This document shows positions 5,426 to 61,553 of a DNA stretch of 64,000 bases, one piece after another. The DNA lies in the NCBI GenBank assembly GCA_963281255.1, contig OY725503.1:3596001-3660000 (forward strand), written 5' to 3'. Under the pieces are notes generated by a model. It was not told where the DNA came from and made no database searches. It saw only the letters and a list, made by a program, of their open reading frames with translations. The DNA is from Aphrocallistes beatrix (lineage: Eukaryota; Porifera; Hexactinellida; Sceptrulophora; Aphrocallistidae). Position 1 is the first letter of the stretch; every line of letters starts with the position of its first letter. A program made the position numbers and the translations under genes.

Positions 5426-5459
5426 TATTAAATAATAATTCTAGTTAAAATAAACTTAC

Positions 5460-9944: not shown

Positions 9945-10260
9945 TGTTTCTTAACTTATTCATCATGCATTTTGAACTAATTTAGCGTACTACCAAACGG
10001 CATAATGACAGATCTACAGAAGTTGACGTCCGAGGTCTGCAAGGATACCAGCATTGAAGAACAAATTTCATGTCAATTTTTAAGGAATTCGCGAGATTCA
10101 TGAGGAAAGTGGCTCGTGAATTTTCCGTTAGCCATAAAACGGTTCCAAATCTCGTGATTAAGAATCGGATACTCTTTTCTGACGAAGAATATTTACATTC
10201 TACAATGCTCAAAATGCTAGGATTCTAGCGAGATCCTCGAGTGATATTCTTGAGCTTATT
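9945..10260 (+). mobile_element. Tc1/mariner-like transposase fossil downstream of ABCC unit 3
   Basis: The plus strand near 10098-10200 reads MRKVAREFSVSHKTVPNLV and then RILFSDEE. These are the helix-turn-helix (..SMRKMARE..S..T...IV) and the first catalytic block of IS630/Tc1/mariner transposases, joined by an internal deletion. A one-base deletion after GACGAAGAA, relative to the copy at 5300, breaks the frame. The homologous fossil downstream of unit 2 shows that the insertion predates duplication of the units. Confidence 0.65.
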
Positions 10261-10331
10261 TTTTAATTTAAAGGACGAGTATTTAATACTTACTTGATTA
10301 AGAATAATAAATATGGGTAAAATAAACTTAC

Positions 10332-25630: not shown

Positions 25631-26436
25631 TAGAAAAAAGCTTTGAACAGGATCACTGGGCCACCAACAAAATTAGCATTATACATGTAGTAACCGCTAT
25701 GATTAGAGTAGGTAAGATGAACAAACTGCTCTACATAAATAATAGTACGTAGTATCCTTTGATTGTTTACTTAATGTACCTCAGATTGTTGTAACTTTTA
25801 AGAAATTCCATTGTTCGTACATCAGGTCTTATTAAAAATATCATTACGGAATCTCAATATAATACTTGCAGAATAATAATTTTCAATCCAAACAATTGAT
25901 ATCGCTAAAATTAACTTGATTTACAAGTGCATTAGAATAAAACCCACTTTAACCCAGTTTAACCCACAAAAGGGGGTTTTGCCCAGCCCGGGTTTAACCC
26001 GGGTTAAATCCGGGTTTAACCCGGGGGGTGGGTTAAATTAGCCAACCCTGATCATGACTACTAATACTGTGCATATGAGGCAAAACGAATATCAATTCAT
26101 GATACTACGAATCACAGATGAAAAACACAACTCTGGGAAAATTAGAAGGTGCACGAGTAAAATTCGAGAGACAAAAGATGGCTTGGGACAGCGGAAAATT
26201 TTGCTAACATTTTGACAAAAAAATAATTGATACTGATGAAATTCGAGTAGGAAATTTTTCAATTAAAGATGAGAAAAGTGGGACGAATTTAATCGAAAGT
26301 TTGGAAAATTATTCGGATTTAGAGAACTGAAACGCATATGTTATAACATGTGTTATAACACACAGGGTTTTTTAAGGATTTGCTCAGAGGGCCCTGCAAA
26401 AGATTAGGGTCCCTTTAATTTAGCTTAAAAAAACAC

Positions 26437-27291
26437 TGAAAACACATGTTATAACACGTGTTATAACACATGTTATAACACGTGTTATAACACATGTTAT
26501 AACACATGTTATAACACGTGTTATAACACATGATATAACACGTGTTATAACACATGATATAACACATGTTATAACACGTGTTATAACACATGTTATAACA
26601 CATGATATAACACATGTTATAACACGTGTTATAACACATGTTATAACACATGTATAACACGTGTTATAACACATGTTATAACACATGATATAACACATGT
26701 TATAACACATGTTATAACACGTGTTATAACACATGTTATAACACATGTTATAACACGTGTTATAACACATGTTATAACAGATGATATAACACGTGTTATA
26801 ACACATGTTATAACACGTGTTATAACACATGTTATAACACATGTTATAACACATGATATAACACATGTTATAACACATGATATAACACATGTTATAACAC
26901 ATGATATAACACGTGTTATAACACATGTTATAACACGTGTTATAACACATGTTATAACACATGTTATAACACATGTTATAACACATGATATAACACATGT
27001 TATAACACATGATATAACACATGTTATAACACATGATATACCACGTGTTATAACACATTATATAACACATGTTATAACACATGATATAACACGTGTTATA
27101 ACACATGATATAACACATGTTATAACACATGTTATAACACATGTTATAACACATGATATAACACGTGTTATAACACATTATATAACACATGTTATAACAC
27201 ATGATATAACACGTGTTATAACACATGTTATAACACATGTTATAACACATGTTATAACACATGTTGTAACACGTATTATAACACATGTTAT
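26437..27291. repeat. 12-bp minisatellite TTATAACACATG / TTATAACACGTG
   Basis: About 70 head-to-tail units of TTATAACACRTG, with variants CATGATA and CATTATA. Many units contain CACGTG, the canonical E-box, and the unit is nearly self-complementary (CATGTTATAACATG). A short relic of the same unit occurs at about 26337-26362. On the minus strand it reads as an open MCYN/TCYN repeat, an artefact of a 12-base period. It lies within the ALDH3 intron. Confidence 0.97.
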
Positions 27292-34799: not shown

Positions 34800-36738
34800 T
34801 TAGAGAGGCAGTCTCTCATAGAAAAGTATGTAGGCTTGAGAGCTGAATACGTCGGCATGATTAGTTTTGGAAATATGGGAGTCGCTTATATAATACCAAT
34901 CTTCTGGGAGAGTCGCGTGTTTATGATTTGAGTCTGGTGACTTGCAGGTGCCATTTTCTCTCGCGAAAGAAATTTTGGCATTCCAATCTGCTATATTAAC
35001 ATGTGCCACATAATGTTCACCAGACATTCCACCCGAGTGATCCACTATTCCTCTCAGACCGTACAGGATCCTGTTGTTACAATCCTTAGGAACGGACGTA
35101 TCTGAAACACAGAAAGGTGACATGTCCAGCACCAGGGGGAACTCAACACGTTTGTTCAGTTTCTGCAGACCGTATCCAGTTTGAGAGAAACGCTTGAGGT
35201 GTATAGTGAGGACAGGACCGACACTTTTGATGTGGAATTGCTTAACTGCGCTAGTGAATATGAGAGCATCATAGTCGATATTATCAGTGTCAGCATTTTC
35301 GTCAGAACTCGTATCTGAGGTCTCGTCCTGATTACTAACGAGTTGAGGATTGCAACTGTTGCAGACGTAGTCCTCCTCTAAGAATATAGGAGAGAAGAAC
35401 CGCATGAGATAGTACTCGAGAGAGTCTTTAGGATAATCATTAGCCATACGATTGAGTCTTTTCATTTCTTTAGATTTGACCTTCACTTCTTCTTCAGAGT
35501 TTGACTTTATTTCATTTTGAAGTGGATTGGAACTAAGAATATTATATTTTTGAATGTATTCAGGTAAAGGCAACGAAATGTCTAGAAAATCTTCATTTAT
35601 GTCCAATATGCTACCGCATCCCTCACACTTCACTGTATCAAGCATTTTTCCACCGAAAGTGTCATCGATAAAAGTACCAGTAAACACAAAAATGTTTTCG
35701 AATTCACTAGCGTACTTATTTAGGTTCTTTCCATCCACAGAACAGTTCTTTGATTGAGTTTTATCATCTTTAATGTTGAAATGTTTACACTTCCAAAATG
35801 CCGCTTCCAGTCGTTTTATTTCTTCATCTTTCACCATGTCGATCATAAAACGGAACAATTCATGACTATCCTGTTGTGAACCATCAGAAAACTTTCGATG
35901 CTTTTTCGCGATATGATCCTGCACAGCCCTAGGTTTGACGGTTTTATGTGTGAATTTATTTCTCGGACTATCTTTTCCGAAAGTTCCTTCTGTAGCTTCA
36001 GATTGGTAGACAGTTTCTTGTATCAAGTTGAAAAGTTCCTTTGTCAGTTGTCCAGGTTCCGCTTTCTTGTCAGAGGCAAATTCGATAGTTTCTAGTTCAG
36101 GATGTTTCTTAGGAACGAGTTTGTACTTAGTACGTGTTATTGTGTAAGTCAGCAGTTCCCTAAAAGGACGGAGATAGAGCAGATTCTGTAGAACAGAGTT
36201 GAAGTAATCATTGTTCCCTAGATTGGAGAGTCCTATTACATGCATATACTTAGGCACTATGGCACTACAATATCTACACTCGATTATTCGAAGCTGACAC
36301 TCATTTTCGCAAATGATTTTGTAGTTCAGATCTCTTCAAAAGAACGCCACATACGTTAGAACAGTTCAGAATGAATTCTGCACACTCATCCAAGTGTACA
36401 TCGATTTCTCCCAGACTTCCTTTCCACACACATCCTCTCTTCATCAGAGGACACTTTGCTCTCAATTTGGGTATGTTATTTCTTTGTTTGGTCATCGGAA
36501 TAAGGTCTTCTCCTTTCATACACACTTCACAAACTAATATCGGATCAGGTCCATTTACTAAACAAGCATTTCGCATTAATCCGATGCACTTAACACAAAT
36601 ATAGAAATCCATTTCGGTTTCGCCCAAATCATTTTCTAGCAAATCCTGTTTGTAGCCTCCATACTCATCTTTCCCGATTCCAATCAGCAGGAGTCGTTCT
36701 TTACAATCGATTGTATTGTAAATCTCTCGTCTAGCCAT
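34800..36738 (-). pseudogene. USP copy A: TRAF-type zinc finger / USP fusion, frameshifted, catalytic Cys replaced
   Basis: The N-terminal frame (36738-36301) encodes a RING-like Cys region (CVKCIG, CEVC) and two TRAF-type fingers. One extra base near 36312 (CATTTGCGAAAATG against CATTACGAAAATG in copy H) shifts the frame. The other frame then reads NECQLRIIECRYCSAI and joins directly to MHVIGLSNLGNNDYFNSVLQ of a USP domain (ATG possible at 36245). The remaining fingers and coiled coil seen in H are deleted. The Cys box is NNDYF instead of NTCYF, so no nucleophile is present. The His box (GEHYVAHVN) and two zinc-ribbon CxxC pairs remain. If translated from 36245 it would be an inactive 481-residue USP. 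Confidence 0.85.
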
Positions 36739-37375: not shown

Positions 37376-40300
37376 TTATAGCAGAGTGCAACTATCTATA
37401 AAAGGCAGCCTCTCGTAGAAGAGTATGTAGGCTTGAGAATTCAACACATGGGAGCGGTCGGTTTCGTTGTAAGAAGAGTCACTAATAAAGTACCATTCGT
37501 CTGTAAAGTTACTTTCTAATGCTTGAGGTAATTCTTCATTTTGCTGAGGAGGATCTGTATCCATTGGCTCGTATGTTGAAGATATTCCTTCACTTCTTTC
37601 TTCCGTTGTTGTGGATTTTGTATTATCATTCCAATCCGCTATATTGACGTAAGCTGCATAATGCCCAGCTGTGATCCTACCTGTGTGATCTACTATTCCC
37701 CTCAGACCGTACAGGATCTTGCCATTACAATCCTTGGGGATAGACGTGTCTGAGACACAGAAAGGAGACATGTCCAGCACCAGGGGGAATTTAATATTCC
37801 TGCCCACTTTCTGCAGCCCCAATTTTGATTGATAAAAACGCTGGAGGTGTATAGTGAGGACAGGTGGGAGAGTTTTGATCCGGAATTGCTTATACGCATC
37901 GCTGAAGTAGCGAGTATCGCTGTAAATCCTCCCAGTACTATCTACCTTTTGGCTTTTATCATCGTGAGAATCTGCATGTGTATATGAGGCCTTTTTCTGC
38001 TTACCAACGAGCTGAGGATTGCAATCATTGCAGACGTAGTTTTCTAAGAGTTTGGGTGAAGAGAAGAACTGCGTGAGATATTGTTCAAGAAAACTTTCTT
38101 TAGATTCAACTGCTCTTTCTATTTCAGGGTCCGACTTTATTTTCCTTTGAGAATGATTTGAACGAGCAATATTATCCTCTTGACTAGACTTCTTGTTATC
38201 TCTAATGTATGTTGTTAGAGGCAGTGAAATATCCAGAAAATCTTCATACACGTCAATTGTGTTACTACAAACTAAACAATTCACTTTACTGATCATTTCC
38301 CCACCGAATGTGTGATCGATAAAAGTACCATTAAACATGAAACTGTTCTCAAATTCACTAGCGTACTTCCTCATATATCTATCACCAGAGCAGTTTTTGA
38401 ATTGAGTTTTATCGTCTTTAATGTTGAAATATTTCAAAAACGCTTCTTTCAGTCGTTTTATTTCCTCGTCTCTTACCATGTTCATTAGAGAACGGAACAA
38501 TTCATGGCTATCCTGTTGTGAATCGTTAGAAAAATTTCCAGATCTGTATAGAATTTCAATTCTTACAGCCCAGGATGTGGATATTTTAGGAGTGACATTG
38601 TTTCTTGAGAACTTCTCATCGGTAGCTTCTTGTATTAATTTGAAAATTTCTTCTGTCAGTTTTCCAGGTTCTGTTTTCTTGTCAGTATTTAAGAATGTTC
38701 TAGTCTCTAAATCAGAGTATTTCTTCGGAACGAGTGTATACTCAGTGCAATCCATGGTATAAGCCAGCTGATCCCTAAATGGACGGAGGTAGAGCAGGTT
38801 CTGTAGAACAGAGTTGAAGTAGCTTACGTTCCCTAGATTTTGGAGTCCTAATACACACATGCTCTGAATTAGTCCTCCCTCATAATCAGCAGACTGATTT
38901 TTTTCTATAATATAGGACTGGGAAAGAGATGGCTTAGGCTTCTCATGGACTTGACTAGCTAAATTTTTCTCGCACGTTCCAGACTCTGAAATATTCTTGC
39001 AATTTTTATCAATTTTCTCAACTCTGTCTCTAGGTACATTAGGTACAAGAGGCAGTCTCTTAGTTCTGCTTCCTTTGCAATCAGCAGATTGCATATGTGA
39101 CTGATCTGAAGATGGATTAGAGCTCTCCTGACTTTTGACAGCATCTCTAGTTTCACAAGGCTTTGAATTATTATTTTCATCAATTTCCTCAACTCTGTTT
39201 CTAGGTACAAGAGGCAGTCTCTCGTAGAAGAGTATGTAGGCTTGAGAACTGAATACGTTATTATGATTGGTTTTGGAGATATATGAGTCACTGATATAGT
39301 ACCAATCTTCTGTGGGTTCAACGTGTTTGAGATGTGAGTGGGGTGTGAGGGGAGATGTCGGTTGCAATTGTAGTGGACAAACGTTATTTTCTGATGCAAG
39401 AGTTATCTTATTCCCTACATTCTTCAGAGCGGATGCTGTATCCATTAATGGGGTTGTGGAAGGGGTTTTTTTAAATCTATCCTCTACTATGCTCGATTTC
39501 GTGATGTCTTTGCTAGGAATTTTAGATGGCATATTCCAATCTGCTATATTAACATAAGCCACATAATGTCCAGCTACCATCCAACCTGTGTGATCCACTA
39601 TTCCTCTCAGACCGTACAAGATCTTGTCATCACAATCCTTGAGGACGGACGTGTCTGATACACAGAATGGTGACATGTCTAGGACCAGAGGGAACTCAAC
39701 ATGTTTGTCCACTTTCCGCAGACCATATTCTGATTGATAGAAACGCTTGAGGTGTATAATGAGGACAGGTGGGAGAGTTTTGATGTGGAATTGCTTATTT
39801 GCATCAGTGAACTTGGGGTCAATGCCTTCAGTGTTATCTTCTTTTTCGTCTTTATTTTCAATGGATTTTATGCTTGTATGTGATGCCTTGTCTTGCTTAC
39901 TAAATAGTTGAGAGTTACAATTATTACAGACATATTCCTTTACTAGGAATTTGGGAGAGAAGAACTGTCTGAGATAGAATTCAAGAGAATCATTAGTATT
40001 AACTTTCCTACTGTCTACTGATAGATATAACGAAATGTCCAGAAAATCTTCATTTATGATTAAAGTTTTTCCACAGCTGTCACACTTCACTGTACTGATC
40101 ATTTCTCCACCGAAAATTTCATCGATAAAAGTACCAGTAAACACAAAAATGTTTTCAAATTCACTAGCGTATTTCCTTAGGAGCTTCTTACTATATTGCA
40201 TAAAATTGGTTTTATGGCCATTGATATCAAAATGGTCAAAAAATGCAGTCTTCAGTCGTTCTATTTCCTCGTCTTTCACCATGTCGATTAGAAAACGGAA

Positions 40301-42196
40301 TAATTCATGACTATCTTGTTGTGAACCATCAGAAAACTTTTCATTTGATTTTCCTGCAATTTCATTTCGCACAGCCCTAGGTGTGACGGTTCTGGGATAC
40401 TCCTGATAGGCGGTTTCATTTATCAATTTGAAGAGTTCTTTTGTCAGTTTTCCAGGTTCGGCCTTCTTGTCAAGGTATACAAATGTTAAAGTCTCTAAAT
40501 AAGGATGTTTCTTTGGAACTAGTTTGTACTCAGTACGGGTCATAGTGTGGAACAGCTGATCCCTAAAGGAGCAGAGGTAGAGCAGATTCTGTAGAACAGA
40601 GTTGAGGTAGCAGGTGTTTCCTAGATTTCGGAGTCCTATTACACACATGTCCTTAGTTCCGATTTTTTCGCCATAATCAGATTGTATATATGACTGATCT
40701 AAAGACGGATTAAGTCTCTCGTGAATTTTAGCAGCAGCATCTCTAGTTTCGCAATGCTTTGAATTATTATTTTTATCAATTTCCTCAACTCTGTCTCTAG
40801 TCACAAGAGGCAGTCTCTCGTAGAAGAGTATGTAGGGTAGAGAACTGAACACGTTATCATGATTGATTCTGGAGACATGGGAGTCTTTGATAGAGTACCA
40901 TTCTTCTGTAGGTGCCACGTGCTCGTAGAGATGTGTGTTGGGTCTTTTCTCCACTGTTTTGTTATCTTTGCAAGAAATTTTAGCTGACACATTCCAATCT
41001 GCTATATTAACATAAGCCACATCTTTACTAATTATCCCATCTGAGTGTGAAACTATTCCTCTCAGTCCGTACAAAATCTGGTTATTATAATCCCTAGGAA
41101 TGGACGTATCTGAGAAACAGAAAGGTGACATATCCAGCACCAGGGGGAAATCAACACGTTTGCTCAGTTTATGCAGACCGTATCCCATTTGAGAGAAACG
41201 CTTGAGGTGTATAGTGAGGACAGGACCGACAGTTTTGATGTGGAATTGCTTAACTGCATTAGTAGATATGAGAGCATCAAAGTCGATACTATCATTATTA
41301 TCTTTCCTTTTATCCTTCAGAGATCGAGTTTCAGAGCTCGAGTTTGCATCTGAGGCTTTGGCTTGCTTACGAACGAGCTGAGGATTGCAATTATTACAGA
41401 CGTATTCCTTTACTAGGAATTTGGGAGAGAAGAATTGTCTGAGATAGAATTCAAGAGAATCATTTGCATAAACTTCCTTACTGTCTGCTACTGGATCCAA
41501 CGAAATGTCAAGAAAATCTTCGTTTATGTACAATATTTTTCTACAGCCGTCACACTCCACTGTACTGATCATTTTTCCACCCAAAGTGTCATCGATAAAA
41601 GTGCCAGTAAACACTAAAATATTTTCAAATTCGCTAGCGTATTCCCTTAGGAGCTTCTTTCTATCTTCAGGATAGTTTTTAAAATGGGTTTTATGACCGT
41701 TGATGTCAAAATGCTGAAAAAATGCAGCCTTCAGTCGTTTTATTTCCTCATTTTTCACCATATCAATTAGAAAACGGAATAATTCATGACTATCCTGTTC
41801 TGTAACATCAGAAAACTTTCCAGATTTTCCTGCAATTAAATGTCGTACAGGCCAAGATGTTACGGTTCTGAGAGACTCCTGATAGGCAGTTTCATTTATC
41901 AATTTGAAGAGTTCTTTTGTCAGTTTTCCAGGTTCGGCCTTCTTGTCAGGGTATGAAAATGTTAAAGTCTTTAAATCAGGCTGTTTCTTAGGAACGAGTT
42001 TGTATTCAGTACGGGTCATAGTTTGGATCAACTGTTCTCTAAAGGGAGGGAGATAGAGCAGGTTCTGTAGAACAGAGTTGAGGTAGCAAGTGTTTCCTAG
42101 ATTTTGGAGTCCTATTACACATATGCTATTAGTTCTATCTTCCTCGCATTCAACAGTCTGTTGTTTCCTCCTGGAATCTCTTTTTGGATTTGACAT
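37376..42196 (-). CDS. USP copy B: triple USP16/45-like deubiquitinase polyprotein
   Basis: A 1606-residue protein in one exon with three USP catalytic domains in tandem (about 27-465, 518-996, 1113-1600). Domain 1 keeps the nucleophile (GNTCYLN, Cys37), but its His box reads ISKDVAYVN, so the catalytic His is lost. Domain 2 is complete: Cys529, His877 (AGHYVAYVN) and Asp in YISDSY. Domain 3 has Ser1125 in place of Cys (GNVSYFN) with His1512 intact. All three keep the QDSHELFR block and paired CxxC zinc-ribbon motifs. The folds resemble USP16/USP45 (FGG.M.STV.C..C, AYILFYERLP) but lack the ZnF-UBP domain. Linkers carry repeated VPRDRVEEID-like sequence. It is probably a nuclear or cytosolic deubiquitinase with one active and two ubiquitin-binding or regulatory domains. 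Confidence 0.92.
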   Translation of the reverse strand: MSNPKRDSRRKQQTVECEEDRTNSICVIGLQNLGNTCYLNSVLQNLLYLPPFREQLIQTMTRTEYKLVPKKQPDLKTLTFSYPDKKAEPGKLTKELFKLINETAYQESLRTVTSWPVRHLIAGKSGKFSDVTEQDSHELFRFLIDMVKNEEIKRLKAAFFQHFDINGHKTHFKNYPEDRKKLLREYASEFENILVFTGTFIDDTLGGKMISTVECDGCRKILYINEDFLDISLDPVADSKEVYANDSLEFYLRQFFSPKFLVKEYVCNNCNPQLVRKQAKASDANSSSETRSLKDKRKDNNDSIDFDALISTNAVKQFHIKTVGPVLTIHLKRFSQMGYGLHKLSKRVDFPLVLDMSPFCFSDTSIPRDYNNQILYGLRGIVSHSDGIISKDVAYVNIADWNVSAKISCKDNKTVEKRPNTHLYEHVAPTEEWYSIKDSHVSRINHDNVFSSLPYILFYERLPLVTRDRVEEIDKNNNSKHCETRDAAAKIHERLNPSLDQSYIQSDYGEKIGTKDMCVIGLRNLGNTCYLNSVLQNLLYLCSFRDQLFHTMTRTEYKLVPKKHPYLETLTFVYLDKKAEPGKLTKELFKLINETAYQEYPRTVTPRAVRNEIAGKSNEKFSDGSQQDSHELFRFLIDMVKDEEIERLKTAFFDHFDINGHKTNFMQYSKKLLRKYASEFENIFVFTGTFIDEIFGGEMISTVKCDSCGKTLIINEDFLDISLYLSVDSRKVNTNDSLEFYLRQFFSPKFLVKEYVCNNCNSQLFSKQDKASHTSIKSIENKDEKEDNTEGIDPKFTDANKQFHIKTLPPVLIIHLKRFYQSEYGLRKVDKHVEFPLVLDMSPFCVSDTSVLKDCDDKILYGLRGIVDHTGWMVAGHYVAYVNIADWNMPSKIPSKDITKSSIVEDRFKKTPSTTPLMDTASALKNVGNKITLASENNVCPLQLQPTSPLTPHSHLKHVEPTEDWYYISDSYISKTNHNNVFSSQAYILFYERLPLVPRNRVEEIDENNNSKPCETRDAVKSQESSNPSSDQSHMQSADCKGSRTKRLPLVPNVPRDRVEKIDKNCKNISESGTCEKNLASQVHEKPKPSLSQSYIIEKNQSADYEGGLIQSMCVLGLQNLGNVSYFNSVLQNLLYLRPFRDQLAYTMDCTEYTLVPKKYSDLETRTFLNTDKKTEPGKLTEEIFKLIQEATDEKFSRNNVTPKISTSWAVRIEILYRSGNFSNDSQQDSHELFRSLMNMVRDEEIKRLKEAFLKYFNIKDDKTQFKNCSGDRYMRKYASEFENSFMFNGTFIDHTFGGEMISKVNCLVCSNTIDVYEDFLDISLPLTTYIRDNKKSSQEDNIARSNHSQRKIKSDPEIERAVESKESFLEQYLTQFFSSPKLLENYVCNDCNPQLVGKQKKASYTHADSHDDKSQKVDSTGRIYSDTRYFSDAYKQFRIKTLPPVLTIHLQRFYQSKLGLQKVGRNIKFPLVLDMSPFCVSDTSIPKDCNGKILYGLRGIVDHTGRITAGHYAAYVNIADWNDNTKSTTTEERSEGISSTYEPMDTDPPQQNEELPQALESNFTDEWYFISDSSYNETDRSHVLNSQAYILFYERLPFIDSCTLL

Positions 42197-44023: not shown

Positions 44024-46480
44024 TTAAGTTATAAGAGGCAGCCTCTCATAGAACAGTATGTAGGCTTGAGAACTGAACACGTAGTCATGATTGGTTTTGG
44101 AGATGTATGAGTCACTGATATGGTACCAATCTTCTGCAGGCATCACGTGCTCGAGATATGAACTGGATGTGAGTGGAGATGTCGGATGGAATGGTGGTTC
44201 ACATGTGCTATTTTCTGATGTAAGAGTCATTCTGTTTCCTTGAGCTGGATCCGTATCCATTGCTTGGTGAGTAGAATTTCTATTTTCAATACTTTTCCCT
44301 GCTCTTCTAGATTTCGCACTATCATCATCAGAAATTTTTGATGGTACATTCCAATCTGCTATATTAACATAAGCTACATAATGTCCAAATCTGATCCCAC
44401 CAGAGTGTTCTACTATTCCTCTCAGACCGTACAAGATCTGGTTATCACGATCCTTAGGAACGGACGTATCTGAGACACAGAAAGGTGACATGTCCAGCAC
44501 CAGGGGGAAATCAACACGTTTGTTCAGTTTCTGCAGACCGTATCCAGTTTGAGAGAAACGCTTGAGGTGTATAGTGAGGACAGGACCGACACTTTTGATG
44601 TGAAATTGCTTAACTGCGCTAGTGAATTTGAGAGAATCGTAGTCGATACTATCAGTGTCATCTTCACTTCTATTTTTATCTCTATCAGAGCTCGAGTTCG
44701 TATCTGAGGTCTCGTCCTGATTACTAGTGAGTTGAGGGTTGCAATTATTACAGACATAGTCGTCCTCCAAGAAAATAGGTAAGAAGAACCGCATGAGATA
44801 GTACTCGAGAGAGTCTTTAGGATAATCATTAGCCATACGATTGAGTCTTTTCACTTCTTTAGATTTGACCTTCACTTCTTCTTCAGAATTTGATTCTATT
44901 CCACTTTGAGGTTGATTAGAACTAAGAATATTATATTTTTGACTGTATTCAGGTAAAGGCAGCGAAATGTCCAGAAAATCTTCATTTACCTCCAATATGC
45001 TCTTACATCCCTCACACTTCACTGTACTGATCATTTCTCCACCGAAAGTGTCATCGATAAAAGTACCAGTAAACACAAAAATGTTCTCGAATTCACTAGC
45101 GTACTTATTCTTGTCCACAGAACAGTTCTTTGATTGAGTTTCATTGTCTTTATTGTTAAAATGTTTCTCAAATGCCTCCTTCAGTCGTTTTATTTCTTCA
45201 TCTTTCACCATGTCGATCATAGAACGGAACAATTCATGACTATCTTGTTGTGAACCATCAGAAAACTTTTCATGTTTTTTCTCGATTTCAATTTGCACGG
45301 CTCTAGGTTTGACGATTTTTTGTGCAATTTTTTTTCTAGCCTTTTTGCCAGAAGTTCCCTCCGTAGCTTCAGATTGGTAGACAGTTTCTTGTTTCAGATT
45401 GAAAAGTTCTTGTGTCAGTTGTCCAGGTTCGGCCTTCTTGTCAGAGACAAATTCGATAGTTTCTAATTCAGGATGTTTCTTAGGAACGAGTTTGTACTTA
45501 GTACGAGTCATTGTGTAAGACAGCAGTTCCCTAAAAGGACGGAGATAGAGCAGATTCTGTAGAACAGAGTTGAAGTAACAAGTGTTCCCTAGATTGGAGA
45601 GTCCGATTACACGCATACTCTTAGTTCTGTTGTTCTTACAATCATCAGAATGTTTCTGCCTCTTCTGACTTTCAGCAGCAGCATCTTTAGTTTCGTGAGT
45701 TATGGACTCTGAATTATGCTTGCGCTTTTCGCCAAATTTCTTAACAGGATTAAAGTAGTTAAAAAATGCGGATATTTTTTTCACTACTGTAGTGTTCATT
45801 AATAATTTCAAATTATAAGTATCTCCTTCTTTACCCTTATCTTCACTAGACTTACAATTATTGCAGACGTAGTTGTCCTCTATAAATAAAAGTGGTAAGG
45901 ATCGCATTAGATAATCTCCAAGGTAACCATTATTATTCTTGGATCCTTTCGCTTCTTCAGATTTTGACTTTATTTCACCTTGAAGTTGATTGTAACTAGA
46001 ATTGCATATTTGACTGTCTTTCTTACTGTCTGTTTGTAGATGCAGAAAAGTGTCTAGAAATTCTTTATGTATATTCAATAAGTTACCACAGTCCTCACAC
46101 TTTACTATCCTGATCATTTCTCCATCGAAAGTGTCAGAAAACTTTCCAAATTTTCCTGCAATTTCATTTCGCATAGACTCACGTGTTACGGTTCTGAGAA
46201 ACTTCTGGTAGGTGGTTTCATGTATCAATTTGAAGAGTTCTTTTGTCAGTTTTCCAGGTTCGGTTTTCTTGTCAGGGTGTGTAAATGTTAAAGTCTTTAA
46301 ATCAGAGTGTTTCTTTAGAACGAGTTTGTACTCAGTATGGATCATAATGTGGATCAACTGTTGTAGAACAGAGTTGAAGCAAAGATTTTGCAGTCTTATT
46401 ACAGACATTCTTTTAGTTATGTCTTCCTCGCATTCAACAGTCTGTTTTTTACTTCTAGAATCTCCTTTTGAATTTGACAT
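44024..46480 (-). CDS. USP copy C: degenerate USP domain followed by an intact USP16/45-like domain
   Basis: An 818-residue protein from ATG 46480 (MSNSKGDSRSKKQTVEC, shared with copy B). Residues ~25-235 are a collapsed USP domain. The Cys box is reduced to RLQNLCFNSVLQ, the middle jumps from GKFSD to FDGEMIRIVKCEDC, and the His box is missing. Residues 295-815 are a complete USP: Cys301 (GNTCYFN), QDSHELFR, two CxxC pairs, His700 (FGHYVAYVN) and YHISDSY. A linker (KKFGEKRKHNSESITHETKD) is shared with copies G and H. It is likely an active deubiquitinase with an inert N-terminal domain. Confidence 0.9.
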   Translation of the reverse strand: MSNSKGDSRSKKQTVECEEDITKRMSVIRLQNLCFNSVLQQLIHIMIHTEYKLVLKKHSDLKTLTFTHPDKKTEPGKLTKELFKLIHETTYQKFLRTVTRESMRNEIAGKFGKFSDTFDGEMIRIVKCEDCGNLLNIHKEFLDTFLHLQTDSKKDSQICNSSYNQLQGEIKSKSEEAKGSKNNNGYLGDYLMRSLPLLFIEDNYVCNNCKSSEDKGKEGDTYNLKLLMNTTVVKKISAFFNYFNPVKKFGEKRKHNSESITHETKDAAAESQKRQKHSDDCKNNRTKSMRVIGLSNLGNTCYFNSVLQNLLYLRPFRELLSYTMTRTKYKLVPKKHPELETIEFVSDKKAEPGQLTQELFNLKQETVYQSEATEGTSGKKARKKIAQKIVKPRAVQIEIEKKHEKFSDGSQQDSHELFRSMIDMVKDEEIKRLKEAFEKHFNNKDNETQSKNCSVDKNKYASEFENIFVFTGTFIDDTFGGEMISTVKCEGCKSILEVNEDFLDISLPLPEYSQKYNILSSNQPQSGIESNSEEEVKVKSKEVKRLNRMANDYPKDSLEYYLMRFFLPIFLEDDYVCNNCNPQLTSNQDETSDTNSSSDRDKNRSEDDTDSIDYDSLKFTSAVKQFHIKSVGPVLTIHLKRFSQTGYGLQKLNKRVDFPLVLDMSPFCVSDTSVPKDRDNQILYGLRGIVEHSGGIRFGHYVAYVNIADWNVPSKISDDDSAKSRRAGKSIENRNSTHQAMDTDPAQGNRMTLTSENSTCEPPFHPTSPLTSSSYLEHVMPAEDWYHISDSYISKTNHDYVFSSQAYILFYERLPLIT

Positions 46481-47531: not shown

Positions 47532-48905
47532 TCACAGCACATGTCTGTCTTTAGGCATAAGAGGCAGTCTCTCGTAGAATAGCATGTAGGCTTGAGAACT
47601 GAACACGTGGTTATGATCGGTTCTGAACACATGAGAGTCACTGATATAGTACCATTCTTCTGCAGGCATCACGTATTTGTAGAGATGTGAATCGGATGTA
47701 GGGATCGGTTGAGATGGTAGTTCGGATGCACTATTTTCTGATGTAAGAGATACCACATCGTTTTCATTCTTCTGAGCTGAACCTGTATCCATTGGCCGAA
47801 ATGTTGAAATAATTTTTTTATTGCTTTCCCTCGCTGTGCTAGATTTCCCACTATCATTGCTAGGAATTTTAGATGACTTATTCCAAACTGCTACATTAAC
47901 ATACGTCACATAATGTCCACCAGACATTCCACCTGAGTGATCCACTATTCCTCTCAGACCATACAGGATCTGGTTATTGCAATCTTTGAGGACGGACGTA
48001 TCTGAGACACAGAAAGGTGACATGTCCAGCACCAGGGGGAAATCAACACGTTTGTTCAGTTTCTGCAGACCGTATCCAGTTTGAGAGAAACGCTTGAGGT
48101 GTATAGTGAGGACAGGACCGACACTTTTGATGTGGAATTGCTTAACTGCGCTAGTTAAAATTAGAGTATCATAGTCGATACTATCAGTGTCATCATTTTC
48201 GTCCTGATTACTAACGAGTTGAGGGTTGCAATTATTACAGACGTAGTCGTCCTCTAAGAATATAAGAGAGAAGAACCGCATGAGATAATACTCAAGAGAG
48301 TCTTTAGGATAATCATTAGCCATACGATTGAATCTTTTTATTCTTTAGATTTGACCTTAACTTCTTCTTCAGAGTTTGACTCTTGAGGTTGATTAGAACT
48401 AAGAATAGTATATTCTTGACTGTATTCAGGTAAAGGCAGCGCAATGTCCAGAAAATCTTTATTTACGTCCAATATGCTCTTACATCCCTCACACTTCACT
48501 GTACTGAGCATTTTCCCACCGAAAGTGTCATCGATAAGTACCAGTAAACACAAAAACGTTTTCGAATTCACTAGCGTACTTCTTCAGGTTCTTTCCATCC
48601 ACAGAACAGTTTTTTGATTGAGTTTTATCATTTTTGATATTGAAATGTTTACTTTTCAAAAATGCCGCCTCGAGTAGTTTTATTTCTTCATCTTTCACCA
48701 TGTCGATCAGAAAACGGAACAATTCATGACTATCCTGTTGTGTACCATCAGAAAACTTGTCATGCTTTTTCGCGATTTCGTTTTGCACGGCCTTAGGTTC
48801 GATGGCTTTATGAGCAAATTTCTTTTTCATTTTACCGTGAGATCCCTCCGTAGCTTCAGGTTGGTAGTTAGTTTCGTGTATCAAGTTGGACAGTTCTTCG
48901 GTGTT
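47532..48905 (-). pseudogene. USP copy D: truncated and twice-frameshifted USP
   Basis: A USP domain starting only at SNLIHETNYQPEATEG, so the Cys box and first ~80 residues are absent. The frame breaks at about 48535 (a 2-base deletion in TCGATAAAAGTACC) and about 48335 (a 1-base deletion in TCACTTCTTTAG). The total loss is three bases, so the final part is back in frame. The His box is intact (GGHYVTYVN), as are the QDSHELFR and YVCNNCNPQ blocks. The 5' breakpoint (GTGTTTGAATT) joins to sequence matching the region upstream of E' at about 55100. Not functional as a protease. Confidence 0.9.
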
Positions 48906-49059
48906 TGAATTAAGGGTCTCTTAGTCTCTGTCTGATTAAAAGTTAAGTTTTCTAAGCTTATTGTAAGGAGGAATTAACAAGGCATAAATAAAATCCGCAA
49001 TAATGATTACTCACTATATCTCAAGGATTCTTAAATTGCACATAATTAAAATTTGTACG

Positions 49060-49465: not shown

Positions 49466-49534
49466 TATTTTCCTCCAAAAAAAAAAAAGGTAGTAAGTAG
49501 CAAGTAAATCCCTGCTTAATGATAGAAAAGTTAA

Positions 49535-49760
49535 TATATAATACTGTTTACGATATCCCGAAAAGTATTAAATTTGAATAAGCAGGTGGTATATTTAAAT
49601 GCATTCAAGAGTCACTCTGAGATGATTCATCTTAATAACAAAATTAGGAGATTTGTCATATCCAATGTCAAATTGCCTTTTCTTCAAAGCCAAAGGGACA
49701 TATGTGCTACCGCAAACGAGATCTTATTAATCATCTCTCCGTAGTTTCGTCATACTTCAA
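49535..49760. repeat. USP-cluster 5' module, copy 2
   Basis: Same blocks as 43070-43295 (GAATAAGCAGGTGGTATATTTAAATG, CACTCTGAGATGATTCATC, AAAATTAGGAGATT). Nearly identical to 53915-54155 as part of the E/F duplication. Confidence 0.75.
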
Positions 49761-49831
49761 CTAGATAATATCCACATCAATAATCGAGTCTAGTTACGTT
49801 AGAACTAAACATATTTTGGGTAGACACGACA

Positions 49832-50655
49832 CTAAGTACTGGAAAAATACCTCGTCGACCTTTTCAATGTGCAAGCGATTACTTTATTTGATTCATCCCC
49901 ATTTTGAGGTGGATTGGAACTAAGAATATATTCTTGACTGTATGCAGCAGGTAAAGGCAGCGAAATGTCCAGAAAATCTTCATTTCCGTTAATGTTTCTA
50001 CAGTTCTTACACTTCACTGTACTCATCATTTTCCCACCGAAAGTGTTAATAAAAGTACCAGTGCACACTAAAATGCTCACCAGCGTACTTCTTCAGGTTC
50101 TTATTCACAGAACAGTTCTTTAATTGAGTTTCATTGTCTTTGATGTTGAAATGTTTCCAAAATTCTACCTCCATGCGTTTTATTTCCTCATCTTCTACCA
50201 TAGTGATCATAGAACAGAACAATTCATGACTATCCTGTTGTGTACTGTTACGCGTAGAAAACTTTCAATGCTTTTTCCTGATTTCATTTTGTATAACACT
50301 GGGTGTGAAAATGTTTCTCAAAGTATTTTTCCCATGGGATCCTCCTGTTGCTTCAGAGTTGTATGTGGTTTCTTCCATCAAACTGGAAAGCTCCTTTGTT
50401 ATTTTTCAGGTTCTGTAACCTTCAATTGAAAGCGAATGTTATAGTCTGTAAATCAGGGTGTTTCTTTGGAACAAGTTTGTATTCACCACGGATCATGGTG
50501 CGATGTGGCTGATCCCTAAAAGGACGGAGATAGAGCAGGTTCTGTATAATAGAGTTGAAGTAACAAGTGTTCCCTAGATTGTAGAGTCCTATTATACGCA
50601 TGTTGTTTGTTCTGCTTGGCTCACTATCAACAGGATATAGAAGGTCACGGAACAA
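49832..50655 (-). pseudogene. USP copy E: short, frameshifted USP fragment
   Basis: Begins PVDSEPSRTNNMRIIGLYNLGNTCYFNS (Cys box intact), but the frame stops after HPDLQTITFAFN at 50422. Later pieces (50429-50080) are in other frames and full of small deletions, ending in FINTFGGKMMSTVKCKNC and DFLDISLPLP. The His-box half is missing. The same lesions are present in E' (54270-55099), so it was dead before it was duplicated. Confidence 0.9.
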
Positions 50656-51054: not shown

Positions 51055-53508
51055 TTAGAGAGGCAGTCTCTCATAGAACAGTATGTAGGCTTGAGAGCTG
51101 AATACGCGGTCATGATTAGTATTGGAAATATGGGAGTCGCTTATAGTATACCATTCTTCTGGGAGTGCGCTTTTACGATTTGAGTATGGTGACTTGCAGG
51201 TGCCATTTTCTCTCGCAAAAGAAATTTTGACATTCCAATCTGCTATATTAACATGTGCCACATAATGTCCACCGAACATTCCACCTGAGTGATCCACTAT
51301 TCCTCTCAGACCGTACAGAATCTTGTTGTTACAATCCTTAGGGACGGACGTGTCTGAAACACAGAAAGGTGACATGTCCAGCTCCAGGGGGAACTCAACA
51401 CGTTTGTTCAGTTTCTGCAGACCGTGTCCAGTTTGGGAGAAACGCTTGAGGTGTATAGTGAGGACAGGACCGACAGTTTTGATGTGGAATTGCTTAACTG
51501 CGCTAGTGAATATGAGAGCATCATAGTCGATACTATCAGTGTCATCATTTTCGTCAGAACCCGTATCTGAGGTCTCGTCCTGATTACTAACGAGTTGAGG
51601 GTTGCAATTATTGCAGACATAGTCCTCCTCTAAGAATATAGGAGAGAAGAACCGCATGAGATAGTACTCGAGAGAATCTTTAGGATAATCATTAGGCATA
51701 CGATTGAGTCTTTTCACTTCTCTAGATTTGACATTCACTTCTTCTTCAGAGTTTGACTCTATTCCACTTTGAGGTTGATTGAAACTAAGAATATTATGTT
51801 CTTGACTGTATTCAGGTAAAGGCAGTGAAATGTCCAGAAAATCTTTATTTATATTCAATATGCGACCACATCCCTCACACTTCACTGTACTGAGCATTTT
51901 CCCACCGAAAGTGTCATCGATAAAAGTACCAGTGAAGACAAAAATGTTCTCGAATTCACTAGCGTACTTCTTCAAGTTCTTTCTATTCACAGAACAGTTC
52001 ATTGATTGAGTTTTATTGTCTTTGATGTTAAAATGTTTCTCAAATGCTATCTTCAGTCGTTTTATTTCTTCATCTTTCACTATCTCGATCAGAATACGGA
52101 ACAATTCATAACTATCCTGTTGTGAACAATCAGAAAACTTTTCATATTTTTTCGCGATTTCAATTTGCACGGCCTTAGGTTTGACGATTTTTTGTGTATT
52201 TTTGTTTCTAGCCTTTTTGCCGAAAGTTCTTTCTGTAGCTTCAGGTTGGTAGTTAGTTTCTTGAATCAGATTGAAAAGTTCTTTTGTTAGTTGTCCAGGT
52301 TCCGCTTTCTTGTCAGAGGCAAATTCGATAGTTTCTAACTCAGGATGTTTCTTAGGAACGAGTTTGTACTTAATACGAGTCATTGTGTAAGACAGCAGTT
52401 CCCTAAAAGGACGGAGATAGAGCAGATTCTGTAGAACAGAGTTTAAGTAACAAGTGTTTCCTAGGTTGGAGAGTCCTATTACAGATATGTTGTTTGTTTT
52501 TGGCTGTTTCTGCCTCTTCTGATTTTCAGCAGTTAATCGTTTAATTTCATCTTCTTTTTCCTGAATTATTGATTCCAATTTTTTTACTTTCTCCAAATAA
52601 AATTCTTCAGTTTTGTCGAAACGCTTTGATTCAAATGGTTTCTCATGTTCCGATAACTCAGATCGTTTGATTAACGCCTCACATCCCATTTCCTTATATG
52701 GGCATGCTATTAGTGTGTTTGGGCATTCTTTTTCAATGTGTGATTTTAATTCTTTTCGAAATAGACTTTTCAAGCATTCGTTAGGACAAACTAAACGAAA
52801 TTCTGGGCAGATTTTGTTGTGATACTTTAATAATGTGTAATGGATTGTGGCACTACAATATTTACACTCGACTATTCGAAGCTGGCATTCATTTTGCCTT
52901 GAAATATTCCTGTTAAAGGTTCCCTTCGTGGCTTTCGACTGGAAGGTAGTTGCTCTTATCAGTTTTCTAGGCTTGCCTTTCTTGTTAGAATTTATGAATG
53001 TATTGAAATGAGGATATTTCTCTAAAACAAGTCTGTACTCAGTACGGGTTATGGTACAAATCAGATGTTCTCTAAAAGGGTGGAGGAGGAGCAGATTCTG
53101 TAGAACAGATTTGAAGTAACAACTGTTCCGTAGATTGTAGAACCCTGTCATACGCATACTCTTAGTTATGCTTATCTCATAATCAACAGGCTGCTTCCTT
53201 TTTATTAAAGACCGAGTGAAAGGTGGCTTACGACTCTTTTGGCTTTTAGTAGCAGGGTACTTAGCAACTTCGTAAGTTAGAGACTCTGAATTAGTCTTCT
53301 TATCGTCAAATATGTTATCAAAAAGTTCCAAACTACGAGTGTCAGTGGAGCGAGTGGGATTTCCTTGGTTTTCAGCATCCTTCTCCGAGTTAGACCTTCT
53401 TTTAAAGTGTTTGAGAGATACAGGTATGGCAAGGAATGTATGTTGTTTCTTTTCGGTATTGGGTTGCCTTTCCCCTGATTTTCTTTTAGATCTTCTAAAC
53501 TTCAACAT
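51055..53508 (-). CDS. USP copy F: USP fragment / TRAF zinc finger / coiled coil / USP chimera
   Basis: An 817-residue protein from ATG 53508 (MLKFRRSKRKSGERQ); a TTG extension upstream is rejected by comparison with copy G. Residues ~117-205 are the first ~90 residues of a USP domain (GFYNLRNSCYFKSVLQ) that stops before any His box. Residues ~207-281 are TRAF-type fingers (CQLRIVECKYC, CPNECL, CPYKEMGC). A short coiled coil with one ESIIQEKEDEIKRL unit follows. Then a full USP: Cys353 (GNTCYLN), His748 (GGHYVAHVN), zinc-ribbon CxxC pairs and YTISDSH. All catalytic residues are present in this C-terminal domain. It looks like an active deubiquitinase with an adaptor-type N-terminus. Confidence 0.9.
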   Translation of the reverse strand: MLKFRRSKRKSGERQPNTEKKQHTFLAIPVSLKHFKRRSNSEKDAENQGNPTRSTDTRSLELFDNIFDDKKTNSESLTYEVAKYPATKSQKSRKPPFTRSLIKRKQPVDYEISITKSMRMTGFYNLRNSCYFKSVLQNLLLLHPFREHLICTITRTEYRLVLEKYPHFNTFINSNKKGKPRKLIRATTFQSKATKGTFNRNISRQNECQLRIVECKYCSATIHYTLLKYHNKICPEFRLVCPNECLKSLFRKELKSHIEKECPNTLIACPYKEMGCEALIKRSELSEHEKPFESKRFDKTEEFYLEKVKKLESIIQEKEDEIKRLTAENQKRQKQPKTNNISVIGLSNLGNTCYLNSVLQNLLYLRPFRELLSYTMTRIKYKLVPKKHPELETIEFASDKKAEPGQLTKELFNLIQETNYQPEATERTFGKKARNKNTQKIVKPKAVQIEIAKKYEKFSDCSQQDSYELFRILIEIVKDEEIKRLKIAFEKHFNIKDNKTQSMNCSVNRKNLKKYASEFENIFVFTGTFIDDTFGGKMLSTVKCEGCGRILNINKDFLDISLPLPEYSQEHNILSFNQPQSGIESNSEEEVNVKSREVKRLNRMPNDYPKDSLEYYLMRFFSPIFLEEDYVCNNCNPQLVSNQDETSDTGSDENDDTDSIDYDALIFTSAVKQFHIKTVGPVLTIHLKRFSQTGHGLQKLNKRVEFPLELDMSPFCVSDTSVPKDCNNKILYGLRGIVDHSGGMFGGHYVAHVNIADWNVKISFARENGTCKSPYSNRKSALPEEWYTISDSHISNTNHDRVFSSQAYILFYERLPL

Positions 53509-53914
53509 AATGTTTTTAGCATCTAGTTTACAAGTTAGTGGCAGATAAATTACTTTTGATAGGCTACTACTACGAGAAGACTTTAATGACAGGGATTCAA
53601 GAACTGGCAAAAAAACGAATTGTACGAGTTTTTTGCCAAACGTTTACTTGCTACTTTATTTTTTCCTCCATTTAGATTTAATTTTACTCACTCACCACTT
53701 TTTTTTTACTTGCTACTTATTGAGAAGAAATTATTGATTGTACAGTATAAGACCGAAACGAGGGCGCATCGAGCGATTTGCAGAAATATTTGAGCATTTC
53801 AGTATCAGAATTTTCTTAATTTAACCAAGTCCATTTCATCAGAGTGTCAGGAAATTTACTTGCTACTTTTTTTTGCTCGCCTTCCAGAATATTACTTACA
53901 CAAGTAAATCCCTG

Positions 53915-54155
53915 CTTAATGATAGAAAAATTAATATATATAATACTGTTTACGATATCCCGAAAAGTACTAAATTTGAATAAGCAGGTACTTGTAGTAT
54001 GTTTAAATGCATTCAAGAGTCACTCTGAGATGACTCATCTTAATAACAAAATTAGGAGATTAGTCACATCCAATGTCAAATTGCCTTTTCTTCAAAGCCA
54101 AAGGGACATATGTACTACCGTAAACGAGATTTTATTAATCATCTCTCCGTAGTTT
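53915..54155. repeat. USP-cluster 5' module, copy 3
   Basis: Upstream of copy F: GATATCCCGAAAAGTACTAAATTTGAATAAGCAGG, CACTCTGAGATGACTCATC, AAAATTAGGAGATTAGTCACATCC. It extends to 54250 as duplicate sequence shared with 49535-49830. Confidence 0.75.
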
Positions 54156-54269
54156 CGTCATACTTCAACTAGATAATATCCACATCAATAATCGAGTCTA
54201 GTTACGTTAGAACTAAACATATTTTGGGTAGACACGACACTAAGTATTGGAAAAATACCTCGTCGACCT

Positions 54270-55099
54270 TTAAAATGTGCAAGCGATTACTTTATTTGAT
54301 TCATCCCCATTTTGAGGTGGATTGGAACTAAGAATATATTCTTGACTGCATGCAGGAGGTAAAGGCAGTGAAATATCCAGAAAATCTTCATTTCCGTTAA
54401 TGTTTCTACAGTTCTTACACTTCACTGTACTCATCATTTTCCCACCGAAAGTGTTAATAAAAGTACCAGTGCACACTAAAATGCTCACCAGCGTACTTCT
54501 TCAGGTTCTTATTCACAGAACAGTTCTTTAATTGAGTTTCATTGTCTTTGATGTTGAAATGTTTCCAAAATTCTACCTCCATGCGTTTTATTTCCTCATC
54601 TTCTACCATAGTGATCATAGAACAGAACAATTCATGACTATCCTGTTGTGTACTGTTACGCGTAGAAAACTTTCAATGCTTTTTCCTGATTTCATTTTGT
54701 ATAACACTGGGTGTGAAAATGTTTCTCAAAGTATTTTTCCCATGGGATCCTCCTGTTGCTTCAGAGTTGTATGTGGTTTCTTCCATCAAACTGGAAAGCT
54801 CCTTTGTTATTTTTCAGGTTCTGTAACCTTCAATTGAAAGCGAATGTTATAGTCTGTAAATCAGGGTGTTTCTTTGGAACAAGTTTGTATTCACCATGGA
54901 TCATGGTGCGATGTGGCTGATCCCTAAAAGGACGGAGATAGAGCAGGTTCTGAAGAACAGAGTTGAAGTAACAAGTGTTCCCTAGATTGTAGAGTCCTAT
55001 TATACGCATGTTGTTTGTTCTGCTTGGCTCACTATCAACAGGATATCGCTTTTCTTTTGATCTTTCTTTGACCCCATATTTTTCACGTAGTGATCGCAC
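54270..55099 (-). pseudogene. USP copy E': duplicate of pseudogene E
   Basis: Almost base-for-base the same as 49832-50655, including the premature stop after TITFAFN and the later frame breaks. It keeps about 165 extra bases at the 5' side (YGVKERSKEKRYPVDS upstream) that E lost by a deletion ending at AAGGTCACGGAACAATG. It is not translated into a complete domain. Confidence 0.9.
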
Positions 55100-59022: not shown

Positions 59023-61553
59023 TCATCGATGTGTGTCTTTAGTTACAGGAGGCAGTCTCTCGTAGAAGAGTACATAGGCGTGAGAATTTAACACGTGGTG
59101 ATGATCGGTTCTAAACCAATGGTCGTCATTAATAAAATACCATTTTTGAGGTGGATATGTATCCATTGGCTTGTCTGTTGAAGTTGTCCCTTCATCATGT
59201 CCTCCTATTTTGCTAGATTTCGCACTGTCTTTGCTAGGAATTTCAGATGGTTTACTCCAATCTGCTATATTAACATAAGCCATGTAATGTCCTTCTACCA
59301 TCCAACCTGTGTGATCCACTATTCCTCTCAGACCGTACAAGATCTTGTCATCACAATCCTTGAGGACGGACGTGTCTGAGATACAGAATGGTGACATGTC
59401 TAGGACCAGGGGGAACTGAATATGCTTGCCTACTTTCTGCAGACCGATTCCCGATTGAGAGAAACGGTTAAGGTGTATGGTGAGGACAGGTGCGAGGGTT
59501 TTGATGTAGAATTGCTTACTGGCATCAGTGAATGTGAGAGTATCAAGGTTAATACTCTCAGTGCTATCTTCCTTTTCGTTTTTATCTCCGTCAGAGTCCT
59601 GCTTACTAACGAGTTGAGGGTTACAAATTTTGCAGACGTAGTCCTTCTCTAGGAATTTGGGTGAGAAAAATCGCATGAGATAGTATTCAAGAGAACCTTC
59701 AGGGTAATCTTCAGGATCATTCAGTCGTTTCAATTCTTTAGATTTGACTGCTCCTTCGTTTTCAGAGTTTGACTCTATTTCACTTTGAGGTTGATTGGTA
59801 CTAGGAATATTATCTTTATTATTAGGGGCATTGACTTCCTCACTTTCTGCTGGTGGCAGTGAAATATCAAGAAAATCTTCAGTTATATCAAATATAGTAC
59901 CGCACCCCAGGCACTTCACTGTATCGATCATTTCCCCACCGAAAGTGTCATCAATAAAAGTACCTGTGAACACGAAAACATTATTAAATTCATTTCTGTA
60001 TCTCAAAAGTTCCTCTTTATTAGCTTCAGGATAGTTTTTTGATTTGGATTTACGGCTATTGATGTCAAAATGATCCAAAAATGCAGCTTCCAATCGTTTT
60101 ATTTCTTCGTCTTTCACCATGTCGATTAACGAACGGAACAGTTCGTGACTATCCTGTTCTGAATCTATAGAAAACTTTTTATATTTTCTCGCGATTTGAT
60201 TATGCACGGCCTTTGGTGCGATAATTTTTGTTTTCCTGTCATGAGATTTCTCCGTTGGTTCAGACTGAGAGATTGTTTCGTTAGTATTCCGGGTTCGGCT
60301 TTCTGGCCGGAATAGGTGAATTTTAAAGTCCTTAAATCAGGTTGTTTCTCTGGCACGAGTTTGTACTCAGTACGGGTCATGGTGTGGAGCAGCTGTTCCT
60401 TAAAGGGACGGAGGTAGAGCAGATTCTGTAGGACAGAGTTGAAGTAATCAGTACTTCCTAGATTGTAGAGTCCTATTATAAGCATTTTATTTGTTATGTT
60501 ATCCTTACAATAATCAGACTGTTTTTCCCTCTTCTGCCTTTCAGCAGCAACAGCAGCATTTCTAGTTTCGTAAGTTATGGACTCTGAATTATGCTTGCTC
60601 TTTATAGCAGATTCCTTAATAGGATAAAAGTAGTTTAAAAACTTGGTCCGTTCTGTTAACACATCAACTTCAATACTTGGTGAAGTTAATGCTGGAAGAA
60701 CAGGCGATTTTGAAATTTTTGATTGGTGACATTCTTTTTCCATATTTCGCACTTTAGCAGTTAATCGTTTAATTTCATCTTCTCTTTCCTGTACTATTGA
60801 TTCAATTTTTTTCACTTTATTCAAATAAAATACTTTAGTTTCGTCAAAATGCTTTGATTCAAATGGTTTCTCATGTTTCGGTAACTCAGATCGTTTGATT
60901 AACACTTCACATCCCATTTCCTTATATGGGCATGCTATTAGTGTGTTTGGACATTCTTTTTCAATGTGTGACTTTAATTCTTTTCGAATTACACTTTTCA
61001 AGCATTCGTTAGGACAAACTAAAGGAAATTCCAAGCAGATTTTGTTATGATTTTCCAATACTTTGTATTGGATTGTAGCACTACAATGTTTACACTCGAC
61101 TATTCGAAGCAGACACTCATTTTCGTAATGATTTAGTAGTTCAGATCGCTTCAAAAGAACGCCGCATACGTTAGAACAGTTCAGAATGAATTCTGCACAC
61201 TCATCCAAGTGTGCATCGATTTCTCCAAGACTTCCTTTCCACACACATCCTCTCTTCATCAGAGGACACCTTACTCTCAATTTGGGTATGTTCTTTCTTG
61301 CTTTTACCATCGGAATAAAGTCTCCTCCTTTCTTGCACACTTCACAAACTAATATCGGATCAGGTCCATTTACTAAACAAGCGTTTCGCATTAATCCGAT
61401 GCACTTAACACAAATATAAAAGTCAATTTCCGTTTCGCCCAAATCATTTTCTAGCAAATCCTGTTTGTAGCCTCCATACTCATCTTTCCCAATTCCCATC
61501 AGCAGGAGTCGTTCTTTACAATCGATTGTATTGTGAATCTCTCGTCCAGCCAT
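59023..61553 (-). pseudogene. USP copy H: RING-like / TRAF fingers / coiled coil / USP, catalytic Cys replaced, frameshifted
   Basis: From ATG 61553 (MAGREIHNTIDCKERLL) the protein has a RING-like Cys cluster (C48-C51, C59, C70-C73), five TRAF-type C-C-H-C fingers (~96-230) and a coiled coil (~240-275). A spacer is followed by a USP domain with GLYNLGSTDYFNSV, that is Asp369 where the nucleophilic Cys belongs. At about 60285-60295 a deletion after AEPGILTK shifts the frame, and the first frame stops at 60165. The other frame continues TNETISQSEPTEKS to the end of the USP (59023) with His (EGHYMAYVN) and CxxC pairs intact. As written it would yield a 462-residue finger/coil protein with only the start of the USP. 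It is a pseudogene or a truncated adaptor. Confidence 0.85.

Follow-up and report, generated by a model that had tools for sequence, protein, structure and literature searches.

What keeps a deubiquitinase gene open across three USP domains when only the middle one has a complete catalytic pair? The question is raised by positions 37376-42196 of a 64,000-nucleotide window (3596001-3660000 of contig C17, in a genome of 100.5 Mb in 28 contigs). An earlier sequence-only reading of this stretch described an open frame of 1606 codons with three USP domains, the outer two disabled, and regarded their losses as selected rather than as decay. The explanation preferred here, held tentatively and at slightly below an even chance, is that the middle domain (D2) is the enzyme, the C-terminal domain (D3) is a retained ubiquitin binder that does not cut, and the N-terminal domain (D1) is a partly relaxed remnant.

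The triple-USP frame and its catalytic residues

An ORF scan combined with Pfam delineates one uninterrupted ORF on the minus strand, which the sequence-only reading had not named, running from the ATG at 42196 down to the stop at 37376 and encoding a protein of 1606 aa with three UCH/USP domains. The three UCH stretches are detected by Pfam in the triple protein with an E value of 4.6e-123, and the profile PF00443 is matched by each domain (128.6, 147.9, and 144.3 bits for D1, D2, and D3, respectively). A frame of this length is not attributable to chance because 200 mononucleotide-shuffled versions of the gene gave open runs of 183 codons at most (mean 92). The chain starts with a 25-aa leader (MSNPKRDSRRKQQTVECEED..., 42122-42196, minus strand) that resembles the leader of the neighboring gene B46 (44024-46480), and the DNA just 5′ of the ATG is also alike in the two genes; both similarities support the ATG at 42196. 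D1 (aa 26-463; 40808-42121), D2 (aa 518-995; 39212-40645), and D3 (aa 1114-1598; 37403-38857) follow on the minus strand, joined by linker 1 (aa 464-517; 40646-40807) and linker 2 (aa 996-1113; 38858-39211).

The triple ORF is unlikely to be an artifact of assembly or to yield separate single domains, through splicing, premature polyadenylation, or cleavage, instead of one protein. The locus is made of similar tandem copies and is hard to assemble. A scan for AATAAA and ATTAAA found none from the triple-ORF stop to position 36200 and six within the ORF, which leaves the transcript end without sequence support. The protein divergence among D1, D2, and D3 (25-40% over 364 aligned codons) is, however, too large for an assembly copy error, and part of the in-frame linker region is repeated.

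Among the three domains, the Cys of the Cys box and the His of the His box are both present in D2 only (Cys529 and His877), which also has Ser969-Asp970 and is complete. D1 has Cys37, and its catalytic-His codon appears to have been deleted, leaving a one-codon gap in the alignment; beside the missing His, Gly is replaced by Lys and Tyr by Asp. The residue preceding the conserved Asp438 is Lys437 in D1 and Ser in D2 and D3. In our reading of the alignment, Lys437 would be the third critical position, with Asp438 adjoining it; the roles of the third and fourth critical USP residues follow PMC10867860. In D3 both members of the Thr-Cys pair, and not the Cys alone, are replaced, giving Val-Ser1125, and His1512 and Ser1572-Asp1573 are kept. 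The five residues on which the sequence-only reading had relied (C37, C529, H877, S1125, and H1512) are each as it stated, as are the missing His of D1 and the confinement of a complete pair to the middle domain.

Other features of the fold are shared. D1, D2, and D3 each keep two CxxC pairs, taken as zinc ligands, and the motif QDSHELFR. In USP36, Asp208, His210, and Arg214 are described as ubiquitin contacts (PMC10611586), and these were equated with QDSHELFR by motif spacing, not by structural alignment. AlphaFold models of D1 and D3, computed from a shallow alignment of seven window paralogues, had mean pLDDT values of 32.0 and 30.5 and were uninformative.

As only D2 has all of the critical residues, only D2 would be expected to cleave ubiquitin. 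That D1 or D3 still cleaves, by some atypical mechanism or with a different ubiquitin-like protein as substrate, is considered very unlikely. It has precedents: USP53/54 were long annotated as inactive and proved active, according to PMC12037411, and USP52 and possibly USP39 are reported in PMC10919355 to act without a standard triad. USP53/54, however, retain Cys and His, and mutating either abolished chain cleavage in the experiments described (PMC12037411). Moreover, the sole His in the His box of D1, His384, is not a new His, since that position is His in all 10 aligned copies. In USPs, the catalytic Cys is not activated without the catalytic His, so the suggestion that D1 may covalently trap ubiquitin is unlikely on chemical grounds and was rejected; at most, non-covalent binding is expected.

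A USP16/USP45-type array and the origin of the triple gene

The triple gene sits in a tandem array of USP16/USP45-type copies, some intact and some decayed. A genome search with D2 placed all close copies on C17, at about 3630800 to 3668163 of the contig, and returned seven matches on other contigs at 28-43% identity. The array contains ten full open USP domains, surrounded by broken copies and in-frame remnants. Seven of the ten have both catalytic residues (D2, B46, E53, F58, G66, H69, and I72), and the pair is incomplete in the other three (D1, D3, and A36).

The best solved-structure match of the triple protein is human USP16 (8wg5, E 6.5e-53), followed by USP15 (2.3e-24), and D2 alone gives the same order. 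USP16 is thus the closest solved USP, which places the array in the USP16/USP45 subgroup on a comparison of solved structures rather than on a tree of all human USPs. The C-terminal block W..ISD....QAY.LFYER is shared with USP16/USP45, and a long insertion lies within the catalytic domain, as it does in USP16. I72, at the end of the array beyond the window, has zf-UBP and UCH domains and matches USP16 from residue 23, and so looks like the parent type, sharing its zf-UBP with USP16/USP45. In contrast to the single catalytic domain of USP16, there are three in the triple protein, in which Pfam detects no zf-UBP at an E value threshold of 0.01.

The neighboring copies in the window are all on the minus strand. 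B46 (44024-46480) has a complete USP preceded by a USP remnant that has eroded in frame. E53 (51055-53508) and F58 (55574-58390) each comprise a short upstream USP remnant of only about 65 residues, a TRAF zinc finger, and a complete USP. A broken USP copy lies in three open pieces at 47535-48920, and a frame-broken copy with TRAF zinc fingers and a USP, Cys replaced by Asp, spans 59023-61553. TRAF-type zinc fingers fused to USP are found at 51055-53508, 55574-58390, 60165-61553, and, at another locus (L009), 610-3261 on the minus strand.

Several observations on these copies stand apart from the triple gene. The TRAF-finger copies carry those fingers where I72 has zf-UBP, and the copy at 55574-58390 contains a repeated KEDENKQLKSII stretch. 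A36 (34800-36245, minus strand) is a single USP with the catalytic Cys replaced by Asp and the His kept; with a branch ω of 0.42, it qualifies more cleanly as a pseudo-USP candidate than D1 and D3 do. Asp for Cys also occurs in the frame-broken copy near 60.4k, as it does in USP39.

Self-comparison of the triple gene aligns D1 with D2 at 81% DNA identity over 1180 bp (39507-40659 vs 40965-42135), and a further stretch reaching into the linkers (39059-39344 vs 40652-40943) is 82.5% identical. In the tree, a D1-D2 sister pair receives 96% support, and the joining of D3 to it 70%; when a shorter set with the B46 remnant is used, D1 and D2 group together at 90%, with D3 not joining them. Judged from sequence, D1 and D2 are products of tandem duplication. 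The sequence also shows that the three-USP chain arose by in-frame duplication of a USP-plus-linker unit within the array.

Constraint on the disabled domains

Selection was assessed with a codon likelihood model written for this analysis and applied to 364 codons of the ten array domains, 363 of 727 alignment columns having been dropped (gaps or runs <8, many due to the long insert of I72). The copies at 47.5-48.9k, 49.8-50.7k, 54.3-55.1k, 59.0-61.6k, and 62.3-63.9k and the B46, E53, and F58 remnants were left out of the counts. The tests compare paralogues, so gene conversion could mislead, and the many branch tests carry no correction for multiple testing. The broken pair 49501-50638 / 53901-55046 was considered as a neutral yardstick and dropped, the pair being 97.5% identical vs 92.3% for the adjoining intact genes.

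Pairwise dN/dS among the ten domains ranges from 0.18 to 0.45, and a single ω for all branches is 0.463 (background 0.41-0.47). The D2 branch has an ω of 0.470 (2ΔlnL 6.60 vs 1, 0.0 vs the single ω), and that of A36 is 0.419 (7.61 vs 1, 0.12 vs the single ω). The D1 branch reaches 0.756 (1.17 vs 1, 4.45 vs the single ω) and the D3 branch 0.663 (4.73 vs 1, 4.63 vs the single ω); jointly, D1 and D3 have an ω of 0.695 (5.70 vs 1, 10.37 vs the single-ω model M0). An alternative placement of D3 puts D1 at 0.758 and D3 at 0.694 (2ΔlnL for D3 3.69 vs 1). Both disabled domains are relaxed, with D3 below 1 at borderline significance and D1 inseparable from 1. The dN/dS per domain, which the sequence-only reading had named as a check on its claim, therefore speaks for selection on D3, if narrowly, and is ambiguous for D1.

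The relaxation of D1 is uneven along its length. The half-split was first met at codon 190 and rerun at 150, 199, and 230; over the four boundaries, the Cys-side ω is 0.46-0.53 and the His-side ω 0.86-1.19, the elevation of the His side giving 2ΔlnL values of 5.69-7.99. Against 1, the Cys side gives 2ΔlnL values of 1.99, 3.79, 3.03, and 4.34 at boundaries 150, 190, 199, and 230, respectively, significant at one of the four. The halves of D2 trend in the opposite direction (0.54-0.67 on the Cys side and 0.33-0.41 on the His side, three boundaries). Those of D3 do not differ (ω 0.63 and 0.68), and neither is separable from 1 (2ΔlnL 2.77 and 2.26). By conserved-column changes, D3 has 18 of 99 changed in its Cys half and 7 of 85 in its His half, with Fisher P values of 0.055 for D3 alone, 0.42 for D1 alone, and 0.095 for the contrast of D1/D3 by half. 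Because the Cys half of D1 is near background and the His half of D3 is better kept than its Cys half, a domain swap can be imagined in which the D1 thumb joins the D3 palm and supplies, in addition to D2, a composite site for ubiquitin or even for catalysis; this idea is highly improbable.

A neutral simulation (400 runs per domain) gives a second measure of constraint, counting changes at columns that do not vary across the remaining complete copies and stops over 364 codons. Changed conserved columns number 14 of 184 in D1 against a neutral mean of 42.9 (range 27-59), 25 of 184 in D3 against 81.0 (61-103), 12 of 196 in D2 against 44.6 (29-64), and 5 of 184 in A36 against 31.0 (18-47). The data support the view that D1 and D3 are more than mere junk. 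The constraint seen in them could predate the losses, if these are recent. The expected numbers of stops are 4.1 for D1, 8.9 for D3, 3.7 for D2, and 2.7 for A36, and the stop-free neutral runs number 7, 0, 3, and 34 of 400, respectively.

The absence of stops does not weigh equally in the two disabled domains. In D1 it proves little because D2 can be made only by reading through the upstream D1. In D3 it does count because D3 is C-terminal, with no downstream domain to protect. The claim that the open frame itself marks the losses as selected rather than as decay thus holds up for D3 (0 stops vs 8.9 expected) and is not supported for D1, which is read through to D2 at a locus where the B46, E53, and F58 remnants have eroded in frame. 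An open frame alone, in other words, is not proof of selection on an upstream fused domain.

In-frame decay of the flanking domains is a genuine contender, though on the doubtful side. After the fusion only D2 would have mattered: D1 would have stayed open to spare D2 while drifting or shrinking in frame, and D3 would be a tolerated tail. The remnant in B46 shows that, at this locus, a USP fused upstream does erode while staying in frame. Its ω is 1.16, inseparable from 1 and with a 2ΔlnL of 3.74 above the single ω, on a set of 141 of 184 aligned codons, the tail having been set aside as misaligned. The reduction of the upstream USPs of E53 and F58 to short remnants points the same way, as do the ω of D1 (about 1 in its His half) and the in-frame loss of its His codon. 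The raised joint ω of D1 and D3 fits relaxed constraint and counts against the preferred explanation. Against decay, the conserved-column count of D1 falls far below its neutral mean and close to that of the active D2, and D3 is free of stops yet protects nothing downstream.

The 141-codon set bears on both disabled domains. Its conserved columns have changed at 18 of 70 positions in the B46 remnant, 3 of 70 in D1, and 15 of 70 in D3. The corresponding ω values of D1 (0.96), D3 (0.71), and the active D2 (0.69) are all indistinguishable from 1, and the set is low in power because not even D2 can be told apart from neutrality. D1 is not far along a B46-like path of erosion. D3 looks nearer to the eroded B46 remnant than D1 does on these codons, which counts against the reading of D3 as retained; the fitted branch of D3 is about 2.6 times that of D1 (1.119 vs 0.425).

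A proposed role, known parallels, and other loci

In the preferred explanation, D2 would cleave ubiquitin, and D3, whose retention by selection is supported, would bind ubiquitin without cutting it and might raise avidity or position ubiquitin for D2. D1, having lost its His, with its His half at or near the neutral rate and its Cys half near the background rate, may be a recently disabled or partly kept binding module, or may be heading toward a B46-like in-frame erosion. Ubiquitin binding by the dead domains is proposed because contact residues are kept and because Cys-mutated USPs still bind ubiquitin: inactive Ubp8 C146S is reported to bind K48 diubiquitin with a Kd of 4.6 μM, and alanine mutants to bind more tightly (PMC6172466). 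That the flanking domains hold polyubiquitin is plausible, since the retained QDSHELFR has equivalents that contact ubiquitin.

A search of the open-licence literature with a few phrasings gave, among the matches listed, no USP deubiquitinase with several USP domains per chain; with one phrasing, most matches concerned universal stress proteins. A paper on Legionella OTU deubiquitinases (PMC10133868) reportedly uses the phrase "two catalytic domains". Several known systems are nevertheless comparable. The mammalian DUB/USP17 arrays are likewise tandem, and some of their ORFs, although intact, are missing the catalytic Cys or the catalytic His; the authors suggest that such copies could bind ubiquitin or compete (PMC2874809). 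The USP17 copies are described there as separate ORFs, whereas the triple gene joins three USPs in a single chain. USP39/Sad1 resembles the disabled domains in having a USP domain without the catalytic Cys and His, with Asp for Cys in USP39 as in A36, and differs in its spliceosomal role and single USP domain per chain, as described in PMC10919355.

Beyond USPs, polyserase-2 has three protease domains in tandem, one active and the rest without triad residues; unlike the triple-USP protein, it is an extracellular serine protease of unrelated fold, and its first domain is the active one (PMC1435904). Carboxypeptidase D, as presented in PMC11266112, has three tandem peptidase domains, of which the dead third contributes to function in flies: its loss lowers viability, and it perhaps presents substrate. 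It differs in being a metallopeptidase with two of three domains active. Tandem proteases with dead domains are thus known among serine and metallopeptidases, and a USP version would be a natural setting in which to test how tethered USP domains that do not cut affect chain recognition. The array also displays intact, Cys-less, His-less, eroded, and broken copies side by side, i.e., steps from enzyme duplicate to pseudoenzyme or disappearance.

Elsewhere in the window, two adjoining transporter ORFs on the minus strand (5428-9636 and 10225-14457), which we take to be ABCC/MRP-like, are divergent along much of their length. By eye, they share identical long protein stretches at both ATP-binding regions, as might be seen after gene conversion. 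An open frame of MCYN-type repeats at 26420-27286 (minus strand) probably represents a noncoding simple repeat. On another contig (C28, locus L038), the codon usage of the mitochondrial COX1 fits an animal: TGA is read as Trp, and AGA stands at conserved Ser positions.
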